Below are positions 14,292 through 32,246 of a stretch of DNA of 32,336 bases, one piece after another. The position numbers were made by a program, and so were the translations under genes. Source of the stretch: a virus. The notes beneath the pieces were generated by a model. It was not told the DNA's origin and ran no database searches. It saw only the letters and a program-made list of their open reading frames with translations. The stretch covers positions 1-32,336 of the IMG/VR virus record IMGVR_UViG_3300020183_000287, one strand, 5' to 3'. Each line of letters begins with the position of its first letter. Position 1 is the stretch's first letter.

Positions 14292-17242
14292 TGGCGACTA
14301 AAAAATATTTTTATCCTCCAGCACCTCCCGTTGGTTCTGAAACTTTCTCAAACGATTTGGTCGGGTTTCAAACCGTTGCGGGAGGTGGTTTAACTAATGC
14401 TAATTTTGAATTTACAAATAATGTAAAAGACAAAAATAATAGAAGTTTCGACACTGGAGTTTTCTCATCACCACAAAATCTTGAAACTCTAAATATTACA
14501 AATATTGAAGAAACAAAATCTATTATACAGAAAAATTTTAAAATTTATCCTAATTTTGACTTAACACAAATTACTAGTTTTTGTACATATGGTTCGTTAC
14601 AAAAAAGGTTATCATCATCTATAATCGGAATAATAAACAAATTTCCAGCGGCACTAATAACTGAAGAATATATTTTTGGTTCTATAACCGCACAAACAGC
14701 ATTTAACGCGATTTATGATGAGTTAGAGGATGTCACAAATTTTGACATGAACACAACTGCATTTAGAAATCCTTTTAATATTGATTATACGGTTAATGCT
14801 GCAAGAACAATAGAAACCGCACCCATACCCGTTTCTAAGTATAGGGATTTAACAAACAATTATTCAAGTTATGCGTTTTACACCAATGATTTTAGTGAAG
14901 AGTATCAAATAATAACTTTTACTCCGTCGGATCAACTTCAAGGTGACACTGTTAATTTAACGGTTAAAGGTAATCCATTTTCAGGAAACACAGGACATAC
15001 CAAAACAATAATGATTAAACCAAATAATTTAACAGTTGAAAATATATTTAACTTAGAATTTGATGAGGTTGAAAAGTTTTTATTAAATAGAGACATTTTT
15101 CCTAAATACACTGCGGTTTTTAGATATTCTGAAGCCGGTGGAGACGGTAAAGTTAAAAATTTCGTAAAAAAAATAAATTGGCCATTATTAGATCAATGGA
15201 ATTTAGATATAACAACAAAAGAATTTGAAAATTACTTACAAAGAATAAGTGAAATTGGTAAAATATTAGATCAACAAAAAACAAATTTAATCTCAAGGTT
15301 TTTAACAACAAATGCGTTTAAAGAGTTTGACACTTCTGATAAAAAAATGGAAAAACTACTACAAATTTATGGTAGAAGTTTTGACGAAATAAAAAAGTTT
15401 GTTGATTCTTTATCGCACTTGACTTCCGTGAACTACGTTGTTGGTAACGACATTCCATCACAACTACTGACAAATTTGGCACAAACATTAGGAATAAATT
15501 CTGATATCTCACCAATTACTAATGAAGGTTTTTTAGATTCAGTTTTTTCAACATCAAGTAAAAAAATATATACAGGAAAATCTAAAGATGATTCGCCAAC
15601 TGAATTAAATTATCAGTATTTTAGAAACGTAATTTTAAATTCTGCATATATGTTTAAATCTAAAGGGACAAGACAGTCTTTAGAGTACATAATGAGATTT
15701 ATAGGTGCTCCTGAGGCTTTAGTTGAATTTAATGAAATTATATATGTTGCTGATGGAAAAATTAGAATGGATGAATTTGATGAAAAATATGCTAAGATTT
15801 CAGGAGGCACTATTTACGTTGAGTCACCAGTACCAAATCCAAGTGACACATTTTCAATACAAGGAGTAATATACACAGGATATACTGCTAGCGGAGTTTT
15901 AAACTTTAATAGTAATGTAAGACAAGATTATGGTATTGACGATAACGGATTCCCAAAAAGCCCAAGACCAACAGACAATAATTTTTATCAAAAAGGCGCA
16001 GGATGGTTTGAAAAAAGTCCTAAACACAGATCTCCAGAAGTGATTGATGAACAAAATTCATCATTTGATCCAAGAAATTTATCATTAAAAACAAAATTAC
16101 AACCATTCACATTTGGACAAGAATATATGGACAAATTTAGAAAACCCGATTTTATGGATGGTATGGGTTATACTTTAACAAGAGTTAGTGATAATAAAAA
16201 ATCTTGGGCAAGTAATAATGTCGGTAATAGGACAAGTAAAGAAAATTTTAATGGTGTAAATTATAGAGTTGATGACGATAAATTAGTAATTAATTCTAAA
16301 AATATAGAATTATATGCAAATGTTGGACAAGGAATAACATACGACATATGGGAATTATCTGTTAAAAATGGATATCCAATATCAAATACCTCACTAACAT
16401 CACCTTACCCAACACCTGGTAACATTGATTGGACAACAATCAACCCAAAACCAAAAGAAAAAACATTTTTTGAATTCGCACAATCTTTTTATAACAATTT
16501 TATAAATGTTAGAAACAGACAAACCATATTTGATGGTAAAACTGGCGGGTACCCAACACTCCAATCGGTTTTTTGGAGATACCTTCAATCTGAAGAAACC
16601 GTTGGATTACCAACAAATAAATTTACTTATCAAAAACTTATAGATTATACATTGGGTCTTGGTGATTATTGGCAAAGACTTTTAGAACAGGTTGTTCCTG
16701 CTACCACGCTTTGGTTAACCGGACAAAAGTTAGATAACTCAATTTTTCATAGACAAAAATTTGTTTGGAGAAGACAAAGAGGTTGTGTGTTTATTCCTGT
16801 TGAATGTATTCCTTGTGAGTATAACGGTCAACCACTTGTTTATGACTGCATCGATCAAATATTAAGATGCCAATTACCGACAGCATCACCCGCCGGTATA
16901 TTAGGTAACATATTAAATAACGTATTAAATGAAAGTGGATACACCCAAAGTCAATGTGATTTGAACTCTATCATATCGACTTGGTTTGTTGATTGTAGAA
17001 TAGGAAATCAAATATTAGTTAAAGAACAATTTTATGTTGGTTATGGTTATAACGATTTCCCAACAAATAGTGAAGTAATAAATGCAATAAACGATAAGTT
17101 ACAAACACTTTATAACTACGGTTTAAATTATTTTTTTAGTGGTAATGTTTTAACAATTACTAATAGTACTTGTTATGATCACTTCACAAATAAAACTTTA
17201 TCATTAAATATTGGTATAAACATTCAAATAAATTGTAGTTAA
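14291..17242 (+). CDS. Large baseplate-like protein with a Cys-rich C-terminal module
   Basis: This 983-residue protein has an alpha-helical central region (about 300-480: LDQQKTNLISRFLTTNAF, YGRSFDEIKKFVDSL). A segment near residues 450-475 (MFKSKGTRQSLEYIMRFIGAP) is the kind of motif found in tail protein I and large wedge proteins, where it joins baseplate subunits. Size and position suit a functional counterpart of T4 gp7/gp8, but homology is not shown. After residue ~828 the character changes: a cysteine-rich stretch (CVFIPVECIPCEYN) leads into a ~90-residue C-terminal module. That module resembles one near the end of the next gene's product, as if a fibre-attachment domain had been added. 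It is coupled to both neighbours by one-base overlaps. Confidence 0.72.
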   Translation: MATKKYFYPPAPPVGSETFSNDLVGFQTVAGGGLTNANFEFTNNVKDKNNRSFDTGVFSSPQNLETLNITNIEETKSIIQKNFKIYPNFDLTQITSFCTYGSLQKRLSSSIIGIINKFPAALITEEYIFGSITAQTAFNAIYDELEDVTNFDMNTTAFRNPFNIDYTVNAARTIETAPIPVSKYRDLTNNYSSYAFYTNDFSEEYQIITFTPSDQLQGDTVNLTVKGNPFSGNTGHTKTIMIKPNNLTVENIFNLEFDEVEKFLLNRDIFPKYTAVFRYSEAGGDGKVKNFVKKINWPLLDQWNLDITTKEFENYLQRISEIGKILDQQKTNLISRFLTTNAFKEFDTSDKKMEKLLQIYGRSFDEIKKFVDSLSHLTSVNYVVGNDIPSQLLTNLAQTLGINSDISPITNEGFLDSVFSTSSKKIYTGKSKDDSPTELNYQYFRNVILNSAYMFKSKGTRQSLEYIMRFIGAPEALVEFNEIIYVADGKIRMDEFDEKYAKISGGTIYVESPVPNPSDTFSIQGVIYTGYTASGVLNFNSNVRQDYGIDDNGFPKSPRPTDNNFYQKGAGWFEKSPKHRSPEVIDEQNSSFDPRNLSLKTKLQPFTFGQEYMDKFRKPDFMDGMGYTLTRVSDNKKSWASNNVGNRTSKENFNGVNYRVDDDKLVINSKNIELYANVGQGITYDIWELSVKNGYPISNTSLTSPYPTPGNIDWTTINPKPKEKTFFEFAQSFYNNFINVRNRQTIFDGKTGGYPTLQSVFWRYLQSEETVGLPTNKFTYQKLIDYTLGLGDYWQRLLEQVVPATTLWLTGQKLDNSIFHRQKFVWRRQRGCVFIPVECIPCEYNGQPLVYDCIDQILRCQLPTASPAGILGNILNNVLNESGYTQSQCDLNSIISTWFVDCRIGNQILVKEQFYVGYGYNDFPTNSEVINAINDKLQTLYNYGLNYFFSGNVLTITNSTCYDHFTNKTLSLNIGINIQINCS

Positions 17243-19665
17243 TGGCTTGTATTAGTGGGGTTACTCTTGGTGGTTTTTATGAATACATAAATTGTTGTGG
17301 TATAAAAACAAATGGATTTGCAAGATCTTTAGAAACAGTTTGTATAGATGCTGCATACTCAAGTACGACCGTGGGTATTAGTGCTAATACTGCGAGTACA
17401 TGTACAATTAATTGTAATTTAGGACCAATAGATTATTCGTTTTCAGTTACGGGTACTTGTTATTCATCTTCAGGCACTGCCGTAATAAATGTTTATAATG
17501 GTACCCCTATTTATACTATTAATAATGAAATTCCTGGAGGTTACCCATCACAAACAGGTCTTGGTCCTTTTACTTTTAGTGGATTAACGGCGGGTACCTA
17601 CACGTTCAGAATAAATGATTCATCGGGTGGGGTAAATGAAGACGTTTACGTAAATGTAATAATTAGTGGTTGTTATAGGACTTCTTTATATGGTGTTTCG
17701 GGTACAACATGTGGTTTAGACAACGGTTCTTTTTATGTGAGTGCCACCACAAGTGCATCACCATATAATCTATTACTATATAAAAATGGTAGTTTATATG
17801 ATGTTGTTACAACCCCCACACAACCATACCAATTTAACAATCTATCTTCAGGAATTTATTATGTTAATTTTGTTGATTTTGGTAATGTCACGGCAACAAC
17901 AGGTAATGGTGTCGTAATACCTAGTAAAGGTCCTGATTTTGGATTTTGGAAAGTTAACACATCAAATTGTGTGATAGATAAAGGAAAGTTAGCGGTAACC
18001 GGTGTAACGGGTACTGGGCCTTTTACTTACTTATGGTCTAACGGAGAAACAACACAACTAATAACAGGACTTACCCAAGGTTCTTACAGTTGTACAGTGA
18101 CTGATAATTTAGGTTGTTCGGTAACTAAATTTGAAACAATAGGTATTGCCGACCCTATTGGTTTAGGTTTAGTCACAGCAATTAATCCATCTTGTTTTTC
18201 TGCGGACGGTAGTTTAACTTATACTTTAACTGGAGGTACAACGCCATTTTATTTTTCTGCAAGTACAGGGCAAGTAGGGTATACATTTTCTAACACTTTT
18301 GTTTTAACAGGATTATCTAGTGGATTTCATACTGCGGTAGTTAGAGACGCAAATTTTTGTGATTATGGTTTAACAGGGTTTTTAATACCACCTAATGGAT
18401 TTAACGTTGTAAATACGACAGTAACTAATTCAAATTGCTCTCAAAACAACGGTCAAATACAAGTTAATTTGTCTGGTGGGTATAATATTTACAATTATTA
18501 TTTATCGGGTCAAACTACAGGGTTTGTAGATGTAGAAACAGGGCCATTTGTTAGTTATACTTCACCTTTATTGGCTAACGATAACTACTTATTAGTAATA
18601 TCGGCTTCAAGTAGTAGTTGTGTTTACACAAACACTTTTAGTGTTAATTCACAACAAAAATTTACAATAAGTGCGAATACAACAGGATCAACTTGTGGTT
18701 ATAATAATGGTTCTTTAGAAATAAATGTAAGTAGTGGATACACAGGATTATTAGATTACGTTTTAAGTGACGGACAATCAATAATAGATACAACATTATC
18801 TTCTTATACATTTACAAATTTATATGCCGGCAGTTATAACATTACTGTTACAGATCAGAGCGGATGCTCAGTTACTGAACAAGTTATAATTGCAACTTCA
18901 GGCAGTTTGGTTAGTACAATATCAACAACATCTTGCACTGGAAATAATGATGGAGAAGCAACTGTAAACATATTTGACGGAGTACCGCCAATAACATATT
19001 CATGGTCAAATAACGTGTCGGGTATACAAACAGGATCTACGGTTACAGGACTAACGGCAGGTACTTACAGTGTACTTGTAACTGATACTAATGGATGTTT
19101 TAAAAATCATAATTTTATACTACAATGTAATTCCAATTTAGTCACTTCTTATGATATTTACACTTTATGTAAAAACAGATTTGTAACAACAACAGGTAAC
19201 CAAAGAGGATTTCTTGAAATGTTAAACGAAGGTTATTTAGATATTACTTCAGGGTATACTGGTTGTGTATTTAGTGGTGCAGTATTTAACGCCCAAGTTG
19301 ATATTAATGGGAGTGCTTTTACTCAAAGTTTTTATACCGCAACAACATTAAATGATGTACCACAAGATACATTATGGCAATCAACAATAGAGAATATTTT
19401 ATCAGGAATTGATGCGGTTGGAAGTTATGATATTGATTTATTGAACAACACATTACAAATAAAATCAAATTGTGACGGTGATTTTGATCCACTAGCTGAT
19501 GCGTTTTTTAGTTTAGAGTTAGAGATAGATTATGACGTTACCTGTGATGCAACACCTACTCCAACACCAACACCTACTCCAACACCAACACCAACACCAA
19601 CACCATTACCACCACCAATAAGTTGTGGAATGTCGGGATATACTTTTGAAATAAACCAACCATAA
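17242..19665 (+). CDS. Tail fibre protein with about seven SprB-like repeats and a Thr-Pro linker
   Basis: The 807-residue protein is built of about seven ~75-85-residue beta repeats starting near residues 71, 153, 238, 315, 397, 481 and 560. Each begins with a Cys and a short D/N-G-x segment, then a G-x-x-P-F/Y-x-Y-x-W-S-N-G strand, L-x-x-G-x-Y-x-x-x-V-x-D and G-C. This is the SprB-repeat pattern of the gliding adhesin of Flavobacterium and relatives; the third and last copies are the clearest. After a ~140-residue globular module (residues about 630-770) comes a (Thr-Pro)n linker and a short Cys-containing end. No signal peptide is present, as expected for a virion protein. The likely role is reaching and binding the host surface. 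Copies may have been acquired from host adhesins; that is inference. Confidence 0.8.
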   Translation: MACISGVTLGGFYEYINCCGIKTNGFARSLETVCIDAAYSSTTVGISANTASTCTINCNLGPIDYSFSVTGTCYSSSGTAVINVYNGTPIYTINNEIPGGYPSQTGLGPFTFSGLTAGTYTFRINDSSGGVNEDVYVNVIISGCYRTSLYGVSGTTCGLDNGSFYVSATTSASPYNLLLYKNGSLYDVVTTPTQPYQFNNLSSGIYYVNFVDFGNVTATTGNGVVIPSKGPDFGFWKVNTSNCVIDKGKLAVTGVTGTGPFTYLWSNGETTQLITGLTQGSYSCTVTDNLGCSVTKFETIGIADPIGLGLVTAINPSCFSADGSLTYTLTGGTTPFYFSASTGQVGYTFSNTFVLTGLSSGFHTAVVRDANFCDYGLTGFLIPPNGFNVVNTTVTNSNCSQNNGQIQVNLSGGYNIYNYYLSGQTTGFVDVETGPFVSYTSPLLANDNYLLVISASSSSCVYTNTFSVNSQQKFTISANTTGSTCGYNNGSLEINVSSGYTGLLDYVLSDGQSIIDTTLSSYTFTNLYAGSYNITVTDQSGCSVTEQVIIATSGSLVSTISTTSCTGNNDGEATVNIFDGVPPITYSWSNNVSGIQTGSTVTGLTAGTYSVLVTDTNGCFKNHNFILQCNSNLVTSYDIYTLCKNRFVTTTGNQRGFLEMLNEGYLDITSGYTGCVFSGAVFNAQVDINGSAFTQSFYTATTLNDVPQDTLWQSTIENILSGIDAVGSYDIDLLNNTLQIKSNCDGDFDPLADAFFSLELEIDYDVTCDATPTPTPTPTPTPTPTPTPLPPPISCGMSGYTFEINQP
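19552..19611 (+). repeat. Thr-Pro coding tandem repeat, tract 1
   Basis: A tract of ACA/ACT and CCA/CCT codons, with a near-repeating 6-nt unit (ACACCA or CCTACT), encodes about ten Thr-Pro pairs near the C-terminus of the fibre protein. It is an extended linker at protein level and a slippage-prone repeat at DNA level. The same type of tract recurs at 23819-24060. Confidence 0.9.
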
Positions 19666-22231: not shown

Positions 22232-22671
22232 TGATATTAGAAATAACAGGAGTAACAAGCGGTCAATCGCCATATGATATTTTTCTTTGTAATACCGGAG
22301 GAACATCATGTTTTTTTATTTCAGGTAATACATTTATACCTCCTAATGTTTTAATAGATACTCAAAACTATTTTCCTAATGAAGAAACGTTATTATTACG
22401 ATTAATTGATACTAATGGGTGTGTTCACGATGAAATACAAAACTGCGCATCAGGTGCAACGGGTTCTTGTGTGTGTAATGAATATAAAGTTAAATGGGGA
22501 CATCCAGGTATTATAAGTTTTTCGTATGACCCATGTTGTCCTAGTGGTTCAACAAAAACAACAACTGTTAGTTACCCTACTGAATTTTTCTTTTCCTCAT
22601 CAACAACACCAAATGTTATTGCTGGTTTTGGTGGAATAATTACCGACTTAGGTGATTTGTGCCCTTGCTAA
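22231..22671 (+). CDS. Small SprB-like module protein, paralogue 2 of 3
   Basis: This 146-residue protein has an N-terminal module (residues 1-75: ITGVTSGQSPYDIFLCNTGG, then LLLRLIDTNGC) that closely resembles the product at 24971 (ITSGQSPYNLYVCD) and, less closely, that at 21929. A Cys-rich second half follows (CVCNEYKVKWGHP, DPCCPSGST, LCPC). There is no signal peptide. Its stop overlaps the convergent minus-strand glycosyltransferase gene by 4 nt. It is probably a fibre accessory; the second half is unassigned. Confidence 0.65.
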   Translation: MILEITGVTSGQSPYDIFLCNTGGTSCFFISGNTFIPPNVLIDTQNYFPNEETLLLRLIDTNGCVHDEIQNCASGATGSCVCNEYKVKWGHPGIISFSYDPCCPSGSTKTTTVSYPTEFFFSSSTTPNVIAGFGGIITDLGDLCPC

Positions 22672-23255
22672 GATAAAATAAATATTTTATTTTCATTAAT
22701 TAAATTTTTAATAAAATTTGATTCCCATTCATCATCATGTTCTTTTGGTTTAGTAAACTTTTGTTCATTCCAATAATGATGTTTACCACTTTTTTCTTTA
22801 GAAAAACTGTCAAAACCTATTATGTGTAAATTATCATAAACATTTTCTAATAACCATTTGATAACTAAAATTCCACTAGATGGTAATAAAACTGAAGGGT
22901 CATTTTTATTTGTTTCACTCTGAATTTTACTTCTAAGTTCATTATAATATGTTAGTGGTATTCTCCATAACTTTTCAGGTTCATATGCGGGTTTACCATA
23001 ATCCCCGTGTGTAAAAATAACTTTATTTGGTCTAACGTTTTCATCTTTAGGTAATACACCACGACCAAAAGTTGACCAAACTGTGGTTTTTGTTCCGGTA
23101 TATTTTTCAAACCCTACAATTTTACATTCGTTAAACCTAATAACCTCATCAAAAGAATCTATTTTTTGACCTAACTCATCAAACATTAAAGAAGGACCAT
23201 TACCTACTAAAACACAGGTTTTTGTGTTATCTAATTCTAATGGGTTTTCTGACAT
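22668..23255 (-). CDS. Sialyltransferase-like glycosyltransferase, family GT29
   Basis: The GT29 family transfers sialic acid from CMP-sialic acid to glycans. This 195-residue protein shows the family's motifs in order. Sialylmotif L covers residues 14-60 (CVLVGNGPSL, KIDSFDEVIRFN, VGFEKYTGTKTTVW). Sialylmotif S covers 125-148 (PSSGILVIKWL, HIIGF). HHYW at 159-162 corresponds to motif III. A motif VS of type H-x4-E is at His173 and Glu178. The L/S disulfide of animal enzymes cannot form because motif S has no Cys. There is no membrane anchor or signal peptide, so it is expected in the cytoplasm. It is the only minus-strand gene of the window, set between fibre genes. Its own octamer variant (TATTTATG) overlaps its start codon. 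The real donor and acceptor are unknown. It could modify host surface glycans or the phage's fibres. Confidence 0.85.
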   Translation of the reverse strand: MSENPLELDNTKTCVLVGNGPSLMFDELGQKIDSFDEVIRFNECKIVGFEKYTGTKTTVWSTFGRGVLPKDENVRPNKVIFTHGDYGKPAYEPEKLWRIPLTYYNELRSKIQSETNKNDPSVLLPSSGILVIKWLLENVYDNLHIIGFDSFSKEKSGKHHYWNEQKFTKPKEHDDEWESNFIKNLINENKIFILS

Positions 23256-23335: not shown

Positions 23336-24952
23336 ATGGCTGATATAATATTAAGTAGTTGTTGTTATAATCAAATTGTATATAGTGCAACTACTTGGAT
23401 TGGATCCACAACTTATTTAGCTTCTTTTGAAATAACGGGAGACACAAATATAATTGATGGTTGTTATACTATTGTTTCAGGAGTAACAGGTTTTGGTCCT
23501 TTTTCTTTTGACGGGACAGCAACATCAATTACAGGTTGTTCAGTAACCTCTTGTAGTGGTTATTGTTGTGACGATCAAGTGTGTGTCAACATACCATTAA
23601 GTGCATATACTGGTTATAACGGTACTTACACATTGGTAGGTAGTTACAACGCTAAACCTTATTGGACAGGTGGTACTAGTTTAAGTTATATTTTTTACGA
23701 TAGTAATAAATGGTGTTTAGGTGACAATTTAGCAGGAACTGTATTTTTCTTTGGGTCTTTCCCTACAAGTTCAATATGTCCCGATTTTAGTTCAACTATT
23801 TATAGTGAGGGGGCATGTGTACCAACACCAACACCAACCCCTGACCCTTGTGGGATTTTAGATTTTGACGTTCTTTTAGAATGTCAAATACCAACTCCGA
23901 CACCAACTCCGACACCAACTCCGACACCAACCCCTACACCAACTCCAACTCCAACACCGGATCCGTGCACGGCATTTACTGTTAGTATTAGCGCAACTGA
24001 AGTAACACCAACACCAACCCCTACACCAACTCCGACACCAACCCCTATACCCACACCTGTAGCCCCCCCTTCAGCAAATACCGTAACATTTATTTTGGAT
24101 AGTGGGTATTTTGTTTGTTCAAGTGTTAAAGAACTAATTGATTGTGAAACAAGTGAAAAATATTATGTCAATGATGCTCTGATATATAGTGGTTCTGGTG
24201 TAACAACAGGAACAACTTTCTTAGCTCAACTTAATGACTTTTATTCAGATCAAATACAATGTGTCACTTATAATCAAACACTAAATAACACGTCACCTAA
24301 TAGAATTGTAAAACAAATTTTTGAAATATACACAAGCGGATGTTCTGAATGTGTGGTTCCTGTAATAGACCCTTGTTCTGCATTTACCGCTTCAATATCT
24401 GCGACTGAAATTATACCAACACCAATAACTTATCCATCCGGAACTAGTTTTGTATTTACATCTTGTACTAATAATACAATGATAGTGCAAAATGCTTACC
24501 CACCAACAAACTTTAGTAATTTATGTGTATGTAAAGACATATCAGGTAATTGTTACACTTACATCGGTAATTTTGTGAATTACATACCACCAACAGGGTT
24601 TATAGTAGCACATCAAGATTTGTTTACTGCAACTACAACAGCAACCACTTACACAACTTGTTTTGATTGTTTGTTGGTACCTGAAACCACAAGTTCCTTT
24701 ACACAATGGAGAGGTAAGGCTGAATACTCACTATCTTGTCCCGTTTGTGAATTAACAAATTATGGCGTTCCGTATAGTTGGTATACGTCATCTGCAAGTA
24801 CAAATATAGAAACTGGCGTATATGTATATGAAGATAGTAATCTAACAATACCATTATATGTTGACTATATTGAGTATGATACTAAAATATATAAAGTAGA
24901 TAAAAATGGAAAAATTACAGAATATTGTAATGTAAACGGAAATTGTACATAA
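23336..24952 (+). CDS. Cys-rich fibre protein with several Thr-Pro linkers
   Basis: The 538-residue protein is modular. An N-terminal Cys-rich beta domain (about 1-160; SSCCYNQ, CSGYCCDDQVC, a G-x-Y...K-P-Y-W-T-G-G region) is followed by three Thr-Pro linkers (residues about 162-169, 186-207 and 223-242). These alternate with short Cys modules: DPCGILDFDVLLECQI, then DPCTAFTVSISATEV, and near residue 343 a second copy of that last module (DPCSAFTASISATEI) followed by only one Thr-Pro. The alternation suggests duplication of a linker-plus-module unit. The remainder is an unassigned Cys-rich beta region. It is probably an extended host-binding fibre. It is the first gene right of the divergent region and has its own octamer. 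Confidence 0.72.
   Translation: MADIILSSCCYNQIVYSATTWIGSTTYLASFEITGDTNIIDGCYTIVSGVTGFGPFSFDGTATSITGCSVTSCSGYCCDDQVCVNIPLSAYTGYNGTYTLVGSYNAKPYWTGGTSLSYIFYDSNKWCLGDNLAGTVFFFGSFPTSSICPDFSSTIYSEGACVPTPTPTPDPCGILDFDVLLECQIPTPTPTPTPTPTPTPTPTPTPTPDPCTAFTVSISATEVTPTPTPTPTPTPTPIPTPVAPPSANTVTFILDSGYFVCSSVKELIDCETSEKYYVNDALIYSGSGVTTGTTFLAQLNDFYSDQIQCVTYNQTLNNTSPNRIVKQIFEIYTSGCSECVVPVIDPCSAFTASISATEIIPTPITYPSGTSFVFTSCTNNTMIVQNAYPPTNFSNLCVCKDISGNCYTYIGNFVNYIPPTGFIVAHQDLFTATTTATTYTTCFDCLLVPETTSSFTQWRGKAEYSLSCPVCELTNYGVPYSWYTSSASTNIETGVYVYEDSNLTIPLYVDYIEYDTKIYKVDKNGKITEYCNVNGNCT
23819..24060 (+). repeat. Thr-Pro coding tandem repeats, tracts 2-4
   Basis: Three tracts (23819-23842, 23889-23958, 24006-24060) encode alternating Thr and Pro. 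The middle tract contains three perfect copies of the 12-nt unit CCAACTCCGACA (23891-23926) followed by diverged copies, a sign of recent replication slippage. The same kind of sequence occurs at 19552-19611 in another fibre gene. Confidence 0.9.
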
Positions 24953-30329: not shown

Positions 30330-30899
30330 ATGAAAAATATTTTATCATTATCAAAAGAAGAAAAAAATAGAATCTTAGAGATGCATATTTCTGCATCAAA
30401 AAAACATTATCTTTTTGAGTCAAATGGTTCAGGTAGTGAAAAACTTGGATTGTACGCAATGGAAGATGGAAAAAAAATTGGAGGTATTGATGCAACTAAC
30501 ATAAAATATCAAGGTAATCCCCAATCAACTAATTCAGATTATCTTACTTTTGATTACACATATGCCGGAGACACCGAAAAATCAAGAGGACAATATTTTT
30601 GTAAAGATAAAGTAATACAAGTTTTAAACACAGTCGAATATAAACAAACCTATCCCGATTTACCTCCAACACCAAATGAAAATGAAGTCCAAAACCCATT
30701 ACGTGTCGATTCACCACCAGAACCAAAAGATAATTCGGTCTTTAACAAACAAACACCAAATCAAAATTATAAGGGTACAATAAAACAAGATGTAGAACGC
30801 AAAAGATATAAATTAAGCTCAGATGGAGAAAAAATAATGGATAGTTATTGTAATCAATATGCTATGAATAAACAAAATAATGACGAACTAACCGCATGA
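30330..30899 (+). CDS. Putative internal head protein with a capsid-targeting-like N-terminus
   Basis: From ATG 30330 the product has 189 residues. An in-frame TTG at 30300 would add ten residues but would run through the octamer, so it is rejected. The first ~35 residues (ILSLSKEEKNRILEMH, YLFES) form a charged amphipathic helix with I-L-E and L-F-E, both of which fit the T4 prohead protease rule ([L/I]-x-E). The body is soluble, Lys/Asn/Asp-rich, with a Pro-rich segment (about 105-135) and no recognised domain. It is coupled to the next gene by ATGA. The capsid role is an inference from the N-terminus and the company it keeps. Confidence 0.65.
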   Translation: MKNILSLSKEEKNRILEMHISASKKHYLFESNGSGSEKLGLYAMEDGKKIGGIDATNIKYQGNPQSTNSDYLTFDYTYAGDTEKSRGQYFCKDKVIQVLNTVEYKQTYPDLPPTPNENEVQNPLRVDSPPEPKDNSVFNKQTPNQNYKGTIKQDVERKRYKLSSDGEKIMDSYCNQYAMNKQNNDELTA

Positions 30900-31570
30900 A
30901 AAGAATTATAAAATTAACTGAATCAGATCTTACAAGAATTGTAAGACGAGTTCTTAGAGAACAGAATGAACCAATGCTTCCTAGCCAAACTTTACCTGAT
31001 CAACAACAAAAAATGGTTGAATTCACTCAGAGAATGGAAGGTCAACTTTTGAATTTTTATTTAATTGGAGACTCAACCCAACCAGTAATTAGTCAATTTG
31101 AGGTTAATCGTGTTAGTTGGGGAAAAGATAAAAATGAAATAAACATTTATGGTTCAATTTATAAAGCTAGAAAAAGTAACCCTGCCGGTATAGTCGCGGC
31201 TTTACTTTTCGGATCCAATAGAGATATTAAACTAACTTATAGATGTCAAGAAAGAGACCTATTCAAATTAGACTCATCCGTTTTTGAAATTACTTGGAAA
31301 GGAATAATTGAAAAATTTGTAGACGCAAAAATGGAGTTTGCAAATGTTTCAGAAAGAGATAAAAATATGGTGAAAAACAAAATGGTTAGAGACTTGATTA
31401 GTAAAAACCCAGCACCTTTAGTACAACCCGGAATTAATGAAAAAACTGGAAAAACATTTCTTGATGATATTAAAAACATTTTGTGTAGTACTAACAAAAT
31501 GGAAAGAACGGTACCAAAATCTACAGAATCGGCATCCACAAATAAAGGATTTGATCAAGACATGGCTTAA
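30896..31570 (+). CDS. Putative internal head protein with LTESDLTRIVRRVLRE N-terminal module
   Basis: The 224-residue protein begins with a basic amphipathic helix (residues 1-22, ending RVLRE), whose last three residues, L-R-E, fit a T4-type prohead protease site. A Pro/Gln-rich linker follows (LPSQTLPDQQQK). The body (about 40-224) is a soluble mixed alpha/beta region with no named family (VSWGKDKNEINIYGSIYKA, LTYRCQERD). The same N-terminal module, with 51 identical bases, starts the next gene. It is translationally coupled to the preceding gene by ATGA. There is no signal peptide or lipobox. Confidence 0.68.
   Translation: MKRIIKLTESDLTRIVRRVLREQNEPMLPSQTLPDQQQKMVEFTQRMEGQLLNFYLIGDSTQPVISQFEVNRVSWGKDKNEINIYGSIYKARKSNPAGIVAALLFGSNRDIKLTYRCQERDLFKLDSSVFEITWKGIIEKFVDAKMEFANVSERDKNMVKNKMVRDLISKNPAPLVQPGINEKTGKTFLDDIKNILCSTNKMERTVPKSTESASTNKGFDQDMA
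30920..30970 (+). repeat. 51-nt perfect direct repeat, copy 1
   Basis: This segment (begins GAATCAGATC, ends GAACAGAATGAA) is identical base for base to 31606-31656 and encodes ESDLTRIVRRVLREQNE in both genes. Identity including all third codon positions, while flanking bases differ, shows recent duplication or gene conversion. Confidence 0.95.
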
Positions 31571-31581
31571 ATATTTTAATT

Positions 31582-32187
31582 ATGAAAAAAATAATAAGGA
31601 TTACAGAATCAGATCTTACAAGAATTGTAAGACGAGTTCTTAGAGAACAGAATGAAGAAGAAAAAATGCCAACATTACCAGCGCAAGAAATACCTAGTAA
31701 TTTACCTAACAGTATAAATTCAGTTATTGAGGATTTAAATGAAAAAAGAGATGAATTGAGACAAGAATTTATCAAGTTGGATCGTTCAAGTGGCAGATTA
31801 ATGGGTAGATTAAAAAACAAAGTAGGTGATAAAATGGGTGAGTTGGAAGATAGTGCAAAAGAAGAAATTGAAAGAATTAGAGTAAACATATTAATGAAAC
31901 TTGACGATATTAAAAGAAAATTCCAATACCTAAGATTAGAGGCTAGAAAAAGAAAAGAGGAAAAGAATAAAAAACAACATATAGAAAGTTTAGAAAAAGA
32001 CATTGAAAAATTAGAAAAAAGTATAGATCAAATTAAAAATAAAAAAGTTGTAACCGCTATAGATTTACAAAACTTAAATGGTATTCTATCAATCAGTGGT
32101 ATGTATATGACTATGATCGGAAGTATAATCGCAAGATTTATATATATGGCTAAAAAAGATCAACCAAAACCTTCGTGGAACCAATAG
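31582..32187 (+). CDS. Putative internal head protein: shared N-terminal module, coiled coil, C-terminal membrane segment
   Basis: The 201-residue protein starts with the same ITESDLTRIVRRVLREQ helix as its neighbour and the same type of Pro linker (MPTLPAQEIP). A long heptad-rich coiled coil follows (about 45-155; IEDLNEKRDELRQEF, IESLEKDIEKLEKSIDQI). The last ~30 residues contain a hydrophobic stretch (about 168-190: ILSISGMYMTMIGSIIARF) able to span a membrane. If cleaved after LRE it would release a coiled-coil protein with a membrane tail, possibly delivered with the DNA. No named family is recognised. A strong terminator follows the gene. Confidence 0.68.
   Translation: MKKIIRITESDLTRIVRRVLREQNEEEKMPTLPAQEIPSNLPNSINSVIEDLNEKRDELRQEFIKLDRSSGRLMGRLKNKVGDKMGELEDSAKEEIERIRVNILMKLDDIKRKFQYLRLEARKRKEEKNKKQHIESLEKDIEKLEKSIDQIKNKKVVTAIDLQNLNGILSISGMYMTMIGSIIARFIYMAKKDQPKPSWNQ
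31606..31656 (+). repeat. 51-nt perfect direct repeat, copy 2
   Basis: This is the partner of 30920-30970, 686 nt downstream, in the same codon phase of a different gene. Confidence 0.95.
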
Positions 32188-32216: not shown

Positions 32217-32246
32217 AACCCACCCCATAAAGGTGGGTTTTTTGTT
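32217..32246 (+). terminator. Rho-independent terminator
   Basis: The arms AACCCACC (32217-32224) and GGTGGGTT (32232-32239) pair perfectly around a 7-nt loop, followed by TTTTGTTTT. This closes the unit of small proteins. Confidence 0.88.

Follow-up and report, generated by a model that had tools for sequence, protein, structure and literature searches.

Unrelated genes of a T4-like giant phage lineage begin with a shared, predicted capsid-targeting propeptide

Why should two adjacent phage genes, whose products are otherwise unlike, begin with the same stretch of DNA? The question arises from the window analyzed here, which is the whole of IMG/VR record IMGVR_UViG_3300020183_000287, a virus fragment of 32,336 bases. 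The original prediction had noted a 51-nt perfect duplication on two neighboring genes and had taken the encoded module for a capsid-targeting and cleavage tag. In phage T4, gp21 cuts after L/I-X-E, internal proteins reach the core by means of targeting propeptides 10 to 19 residues long, and two of these proteins, IPII and IPIII, have one propeptide in common (PMC9026906). From comparison of sequences, we consider it highly probable that the shared 22-residue N-terminus is a T4-style capsid-targeting propeptide that would be cut after LRE, freeing diverse internal head proteins. The features concerned, all on the + strand, are as follows (a slash marks a predicted cut here and below).

30330 to 30899, +: 189-aa protein whose leader is of a second type (MKNILSLSKEEKNRILEMHISASKKHYLFE/SNG); predicted to be a further, third cargo (matches the leader-type pattern)
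30896 to 30961, +: tag copy 1, residues 1–22 (MKRIIKLTESDLTRIVRRVLRE), predicted capsid-targeting propeptide (repeat; module conserved on unrelated bodies, [ILV]xE end)
30920 to 30970, +: 51-nt perfect repeat, copy 1 (exact repeat search)
30962 to 31570, +: cargo 1, body of a 224-aa protein, first residues QNEPMLPSQTLP (no known family)
31582 to 31647, +: tag copy 2, residues 1–22 (MKKIIRITESDLTRIVRRVLRE), same predicted cut after E22 (repeat; conserved [ILV]xE end)
31606 to 31656, +: 51-nt perfect repeat, copy 2 (exact repeat search)
31648 to 32187, +: cargo 2, body of a 201-aa protein (charged stretch resembling a coiled coil; hydrophobic segment close to the C-terminus)
32217 to 32239, +: intrinsic-terminator-like hairpin with a T tract, 3' of the last of the three genes (three overlapping predictions versus 0.8 expected in shuffles)

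The duplication stood up to examination. There are exactly two copies of the 51-nt block (GAATCAGATC...CAGAATGAA) in the window (30920–30970 and 31606–31656), against an expected number of 0 in 100 dinucleotide shuffles. The block is the inner part of a longer repeat (30896–30970 and 31582–31656; 75 nt, 91% identical), each copy of which begins at the ATG of its gene and which encodes MK[R/K]II[K/R][L/I]TESDLTRIVRRVLREQNE. Behind the two tags, the bodies have no significant similarity (best E 0.12), as had been claimed; the linkers LPSQTLP and LPAQEIP, described as similar, are alike but only weakly so (E 1.3). In tag copy 1, the predicted cut would fall after E22 and before QNE. Compared with Pfam and PHROG, the window cargo bodies matched no curated family except for a weak match of cargo 2 to PHROG 1193 (hemolysin; E 2.4e-4, residues 126–189). 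A homologue of cargo 1 in L003 is 77% identical and bears the same tag, and homologues of cargo 2 were found in L004–L007. A single-sequence structure model of the 224-aa protein placed a helix at residues 9–23; its mean pLDDT of 48.8 makes it unreliable and too poor for a fold search, which was dropped, and a PDB sequence search gave no match. As the original prediction held, the N-terminus of the protein that starts at the ATG at 30330 is charged and differs from the tag; it ends LFE. The likely cut is LFE/S near residue 30, not the ILE also named there.

The original prediction had proposed to look for other proteins that start with this module in the rest of the genome; such proteins proved to be present in relatives of this phage. 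A degenerate pattern for [LI]TESDLxRI[VI], which fixes tag residues 7–16 only, matched at least 120 stretches in IMG/VR, and the mirrored-pattern control gave 0 matches there. Among the matches listed, 131 of 135 distinct protein windows sit at most 14 aa from a Met, that is, near a start codon; BLAST sorted 204 tagged bodies into 133 similarity clusters, 95 of them singletons, and at least two different tagged bodies occur on each of 41 contigs. Across 129 representatives, the near-invariant columns are only M1, L, T, E, D, L and the closing E, with no conservation past the tag. Nearly all tagged bodies are without a known family, and scans of the 129 cargo representatives with PADLOC, Pfam and PHROGs returned scattered matches only, which speaks against a common cargo function; some cargos carry LysM or peptidoglycan-binding domains or endolysin-like matches. 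The bodies are small (median 128 aa). Unlike T4 internal proteins, which are basic, the tagged cargos exceed other proteins only slightly in basicity (pI >7 in 46% versus 32%), which counts against the propeptide reading. In cellular genomes, the same pattern matched 64 stretches, with 44 matches at the protein level, 21 of which are N-terminal. The N-terminal ones come mostly from Bacteroidales MAGs and isolates, in the form LTESDLHRIVKESVNRVLxE, which suggests that the hosts of the tagged phages are Bacteroidota. Used as a tblastn query against isolate phages, the tag gave no match or chance-level matches only.

Conservation of the tag stops at [ILV]xE. Column information content is 3.0 bits for residue 20, 1.6 for residue 21, 3.68 for E22 and 1.34 for residue 23, and then stays below 0.9. 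Residues 20–22, which the search pattern does not force, are hydrophobic-x-Glu in 111 N-terminal tags versus 3.5 in shuffles. With Val counted beside L/I in scoring the gp21-type end, an [ILVMA]xE end is found in 122 of 123 N-terminal tags (99%) among the matches listed. Both window copies end LRE, and a gut-type tag that is about one helical turn longer keeps LxE. Four C-terminal tags (L171, L184, L200 and L247) end without E, in VLSSK, VIK, VIDGK and VLKDNQVGND, as expected if only leaders need removal. The tag of L178 is internal and has no clear cut site. An exception is a 549-aa fusion (G003:43672-45321, and also in G002), whose internal tag still has LRE; a cut there would split the protein, which counts against the reading as a cleaved propeptide. 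This fusion joins a second-leader-type protein to a homologue of the window's 201-aa protein.

Leaders are exchangeable. Where one protein has the long tag, a homologous body may instead follow a short helix (MNLNSIIKKVLKE/E, MRNIDNIIRKVIKE/Q) or a different leader, and among the homologues with other leaders, [ILVM]xE lies directly before the body in 17 of 23 (8.2 expected, P=5e-5). One family of ~400 aa, located in the head-gene region of G012, carries three leaders, MKRQKITIKE/APIDY, MKTYKKRINE/APIEY and MGNLTEKELDRIVNKIINE/APIDY. The second leader type, that of the 30330 gene, follows LSKEEKNRILEMHISASKKHYLFE; it is N-terminal in 97 of 98 distinct matches and has LxE in 93 of 95 versus 12.6 expected. 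Strict tags number 4–11 in each of the genomes G025, G028 and G036. By pattern, leader-bearing proteins number 17, 29 and 10 in these genomes, respectively, versus ~0.3 each in shuffled N-termini; these counts are indicative, with patterns made after inspection and the scaffold included in two genomes. The same holds for the short and third leader types (B and C), whose patterns were devised after the data had been seen and the latter of which, in G028, is partly one paralogous family. Unrelated bodies, the [I/L/V]xE end and swapped leaders in the relatives are what a capsid-targeting and cleavage tag, as originally proposed, predicts at the sequence level.

The window's phage was placed by its other genes. 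Upstream of the tag genes lie tail-fibre-like genes and a RuvC-like resolvase gene, and many relatives of the gp6-like baseplate protein were found. G003 and G004 are tied to the window by gene order and identity (ribonucleotide reductase, 97–99%; RuvC-like protein, 86–88%), and three syntenic genomes of ~300 kb, G025, G028 and G036, are more distant kin (gp6-like, 60–62%; RuvC-like, 63–68%). The closest isolate is Flavobacterium phage immuto (gp6, 28%), which has an annotated T4-like head comprising gp20, a prohead core serine protease and gp23; it lacks the tag apart from one weak short-type match, which counts against the reading as a capsid-targeting propeptide. No S77, Gp23 or other head gene was found in the window, and the head genes of its own phage are beyond the 32-kb fragment. 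The gp21-like protease that the original prediction called for was thus recovered not in this fragment but in its relatives, where S77 (PF03420) adjoins a scaffold-like acidic protein and Gp23 (PF07068). Both S77 and Gp23 are present in the three ~300-kb genomes. S77 occurs in 18 of 30 tag-bearing contigs of at least 66 kb; of the 12 without it, 11 also have no Gp23 homologue, so head genes are probably off those contigs. S77 was also detected in 3 of 9 random contigs of at least 66 kb, and its association with the tag was therefore rejected as proof: co-occurrence, expected for any T4-like phage, is permissive and not discriminating. The Gp23 of the lineage has a conserved N-terminal leader ending LINE/A before the conserved body, which matches the L/I-X-E cleavage motif of T4 gp21 (PMC9026906), and in L260 a tagged gene lies within the head cluster beside S77. 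The tag and the scaffold segment ISELVKESLSEQ resemble each other by eye, but not significantly (E about 5); imitation of the scaffold was rejected as an established reading and kept as a possibility.

Is the peptide what is conserved, or the DNA? The perfect 51-nt identity in the window could have been kept for DNA or RNA reasons, such as a recombination hot spot or a regulatory or translation-start element, with the peptide as a by-product. The two window tags use the same codon at 14 of 15 shared amino-acid sites, and codon identity at same-residue sites is higher within contigs than between them (0.66 versus 0.56, P=8e-10), an excess that would fit this explanation. Between contigs, however, residues are conserved while codons agree at only 56% of same-residue sites, which points to selection on the protein; synonymous differences are present in the related tags of L003, G003 and G004, and the mirrored DNA pattern had no match in IMG/VR. 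We regard this explanation as largely excluded. The codon data instead bear on copying. Pairs of tags with codon identity of at least 0.93 make up 6 of 107 within contigs versus 47 of 12,635 between contigs, which supports, at the level of codons, copying of tags within genomes, with a contribution from shared codon usage. That the window copies arose recently, as had been proposed, is partly supported by their shared codons and the within-contig excess, but they differ upstream of the 51-nt block, and the 224-aa gene has a tag about as close to that of the relative G005 (46/48) as to its paralogue in the window (45/48).

If the peptide is what matters, it might still act elsewhere than in the prohead. 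A localization or docking helix for the membrane, a replication factory or the tail, in which the Glu is merely part of the helix, would suit the amphipathic, basic character of the tag (hydrophobic moment 0.69 versus 0.32 shuffled), the existence of C-terminal tags, and the cargos with LysM, peptidoglycan-binding or endolysin-like matches, which could act in other places too. It sits poorly with conservation that stops exactly at [ILV]xE, with leaders of unlike sequence that have mainly this end in common, with the same motif at the likely propeptide junction of the capsid protein of these phages, and with the position of the tagged L260 gene next to S77; we judge it unlikely. A still less probable alternative, to which we give little weight, is that in most proteins the tag is not cut, binds the scaffold and remains on the cargo in the mature head. 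The four C-terminal tags without E and the internal tag of L178 would indeed stay attached, and in T4 targeting and processing by the CTS (capsid targeting sequence) are separable by mutation (PMC9026906). Against this, a hydrophobic-x-Glu end in 99% of N-terminal tags is hard to explain without a cut.

For the preferred reading, a cleaved capsid-targeting propeptide, we infer cleavage, packaging, ejection, scaffold contact and a protease in the window's own phage. Before head closure, the amphipathic helix (about residues 9–22) would bring the protein into the prohead core, probably by contacting the scaffold. Cleavage after Glu22 (LRE/Q) by the phage's own S77 (gp21-type) prohead protease would next remove the leader, and the mature cargo would stay in the head to be ejected later along with the DNA. 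On this view the leader is a module that has been copied to unrelated cargos, and the lineage employs several types of leader that share one cleavage end; the 30330 gene bears another. A wider reading is tentative, and we hold it to be possible rather than probable: this lineage of T4-like giant phages, whose hosts are probably Bacteroidota, may have a general protein-loading code of interchangeable cleavable leaders and uncleaved C-terminal versions, in which the tag imitates the phage's own scaffold segment and tens of unrelated proteins per virion are marked to be loaded and delivered; the injected set would then exceed what is known for T4- or phiKZ-type phages.

The tag resembles the T4 CTS of IPI, IPII and IPIII in being a short N-terminal propeptide with an L/I-x-E end, in a lineage with an S77 protease and a Gp23-type capsid, and in the presence, as on IPII and IPIII, of the same leader on different bodies. 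It differs from the T4 CTS (10–19 residues) in its length of ~22 residues and its distinct motif, LTESDLxRIVKRVIxE, and in the occurrence of several leader types, of 10 to 29 proteins with pattern-matched leaders in each ~300-kb genome, and of some C-terminal tags. Propeptides of this kind are too short for demonstrable sequence homology to the T4 CTS. The giant Salmonella phage SPN3US likewise has a T4-like prohead protease, gp245, that cuts after a Glu motif; the available part of its description lists nine substrates among head proteins with propeptides, two of which have short N-terminal ones (20 and 24 residues) (PMC10052503). Most SPN3US propeptides are long (111–254 residues), unlike the tag here, and that part describes no module common to unrelated cargos (PMC10052503). 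In phage P1, the first 30 residues of DarB, an injected anti-restriction protein, suffice to carry a foreign protein into the head; this is one cargo with its own signal and not a leader of many proteins, and the excerpted account of it describes no L/I-x-E end (PMC9024508).

In the open-access library searched, no paper has the string LTESDL together with phage, and none brings "capsid targeting", phage and metagenomics together. T4 has already established the principle; the leader sequence, the number of cargos, the several leader types per genome and the C-terminal tags appear undescribed in that library. If our reading is right, a 22-residue signature would tell which of the hundreds of proteins of unknown function in uncultured giant phages ride in the head and are the first to enter the host, a group in which functions in anti-defence and takeover are to be expected. 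Because nearly all tagged bodies lack a known family, the tag would be a practical filter for delivered proteins. It would also become possible to test directly an open question from T4, the extent to which capsid targeting sequences spread new cargo among phages.

Several further observations were made. Gut-type tags also occur in the isolate chromosomes of Segatella baroniae B14 and Prevotella sp. MA2016, with no obvious phage genes adjoining; chromosomal tags of this type lie at L363 1104-1367 (−) and L376 5795-6823 (−), the latter gene adjoining a transposase-like gene. The C-terminal tags are at L200 1687-2835, L247 1537-1938 and L184 2475-3650, that of L171 being likewise C-terminal, and L200 and L247 have an EDL.VWFGTKKKPKGS domain in common. 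The S77 gene of L275/L276 (G026, 334,687 bp) is longer, at 386 aa, with an intein-like insert starting CYKPDALILTETGWKTLEEVKVGDNILTLN. A paralogous family of ~149 aa that starts MKIIITENQYKLIKEN is present in several copies in one genome (G028:239222-242671 and elsewhere). In the window itself, two large tail-fibre-like proteins (17242-19665 and 23336-24952) contain long Thr-Pro repeats (TPTPTP...), and an antisense gene within the tail-fibre-like cluster (22668-23255, −) matches Pfam glycosyltransferase family 29 (sialyltransferase; E 1.6e-22), with different genes at about the same place in G003 and G004.
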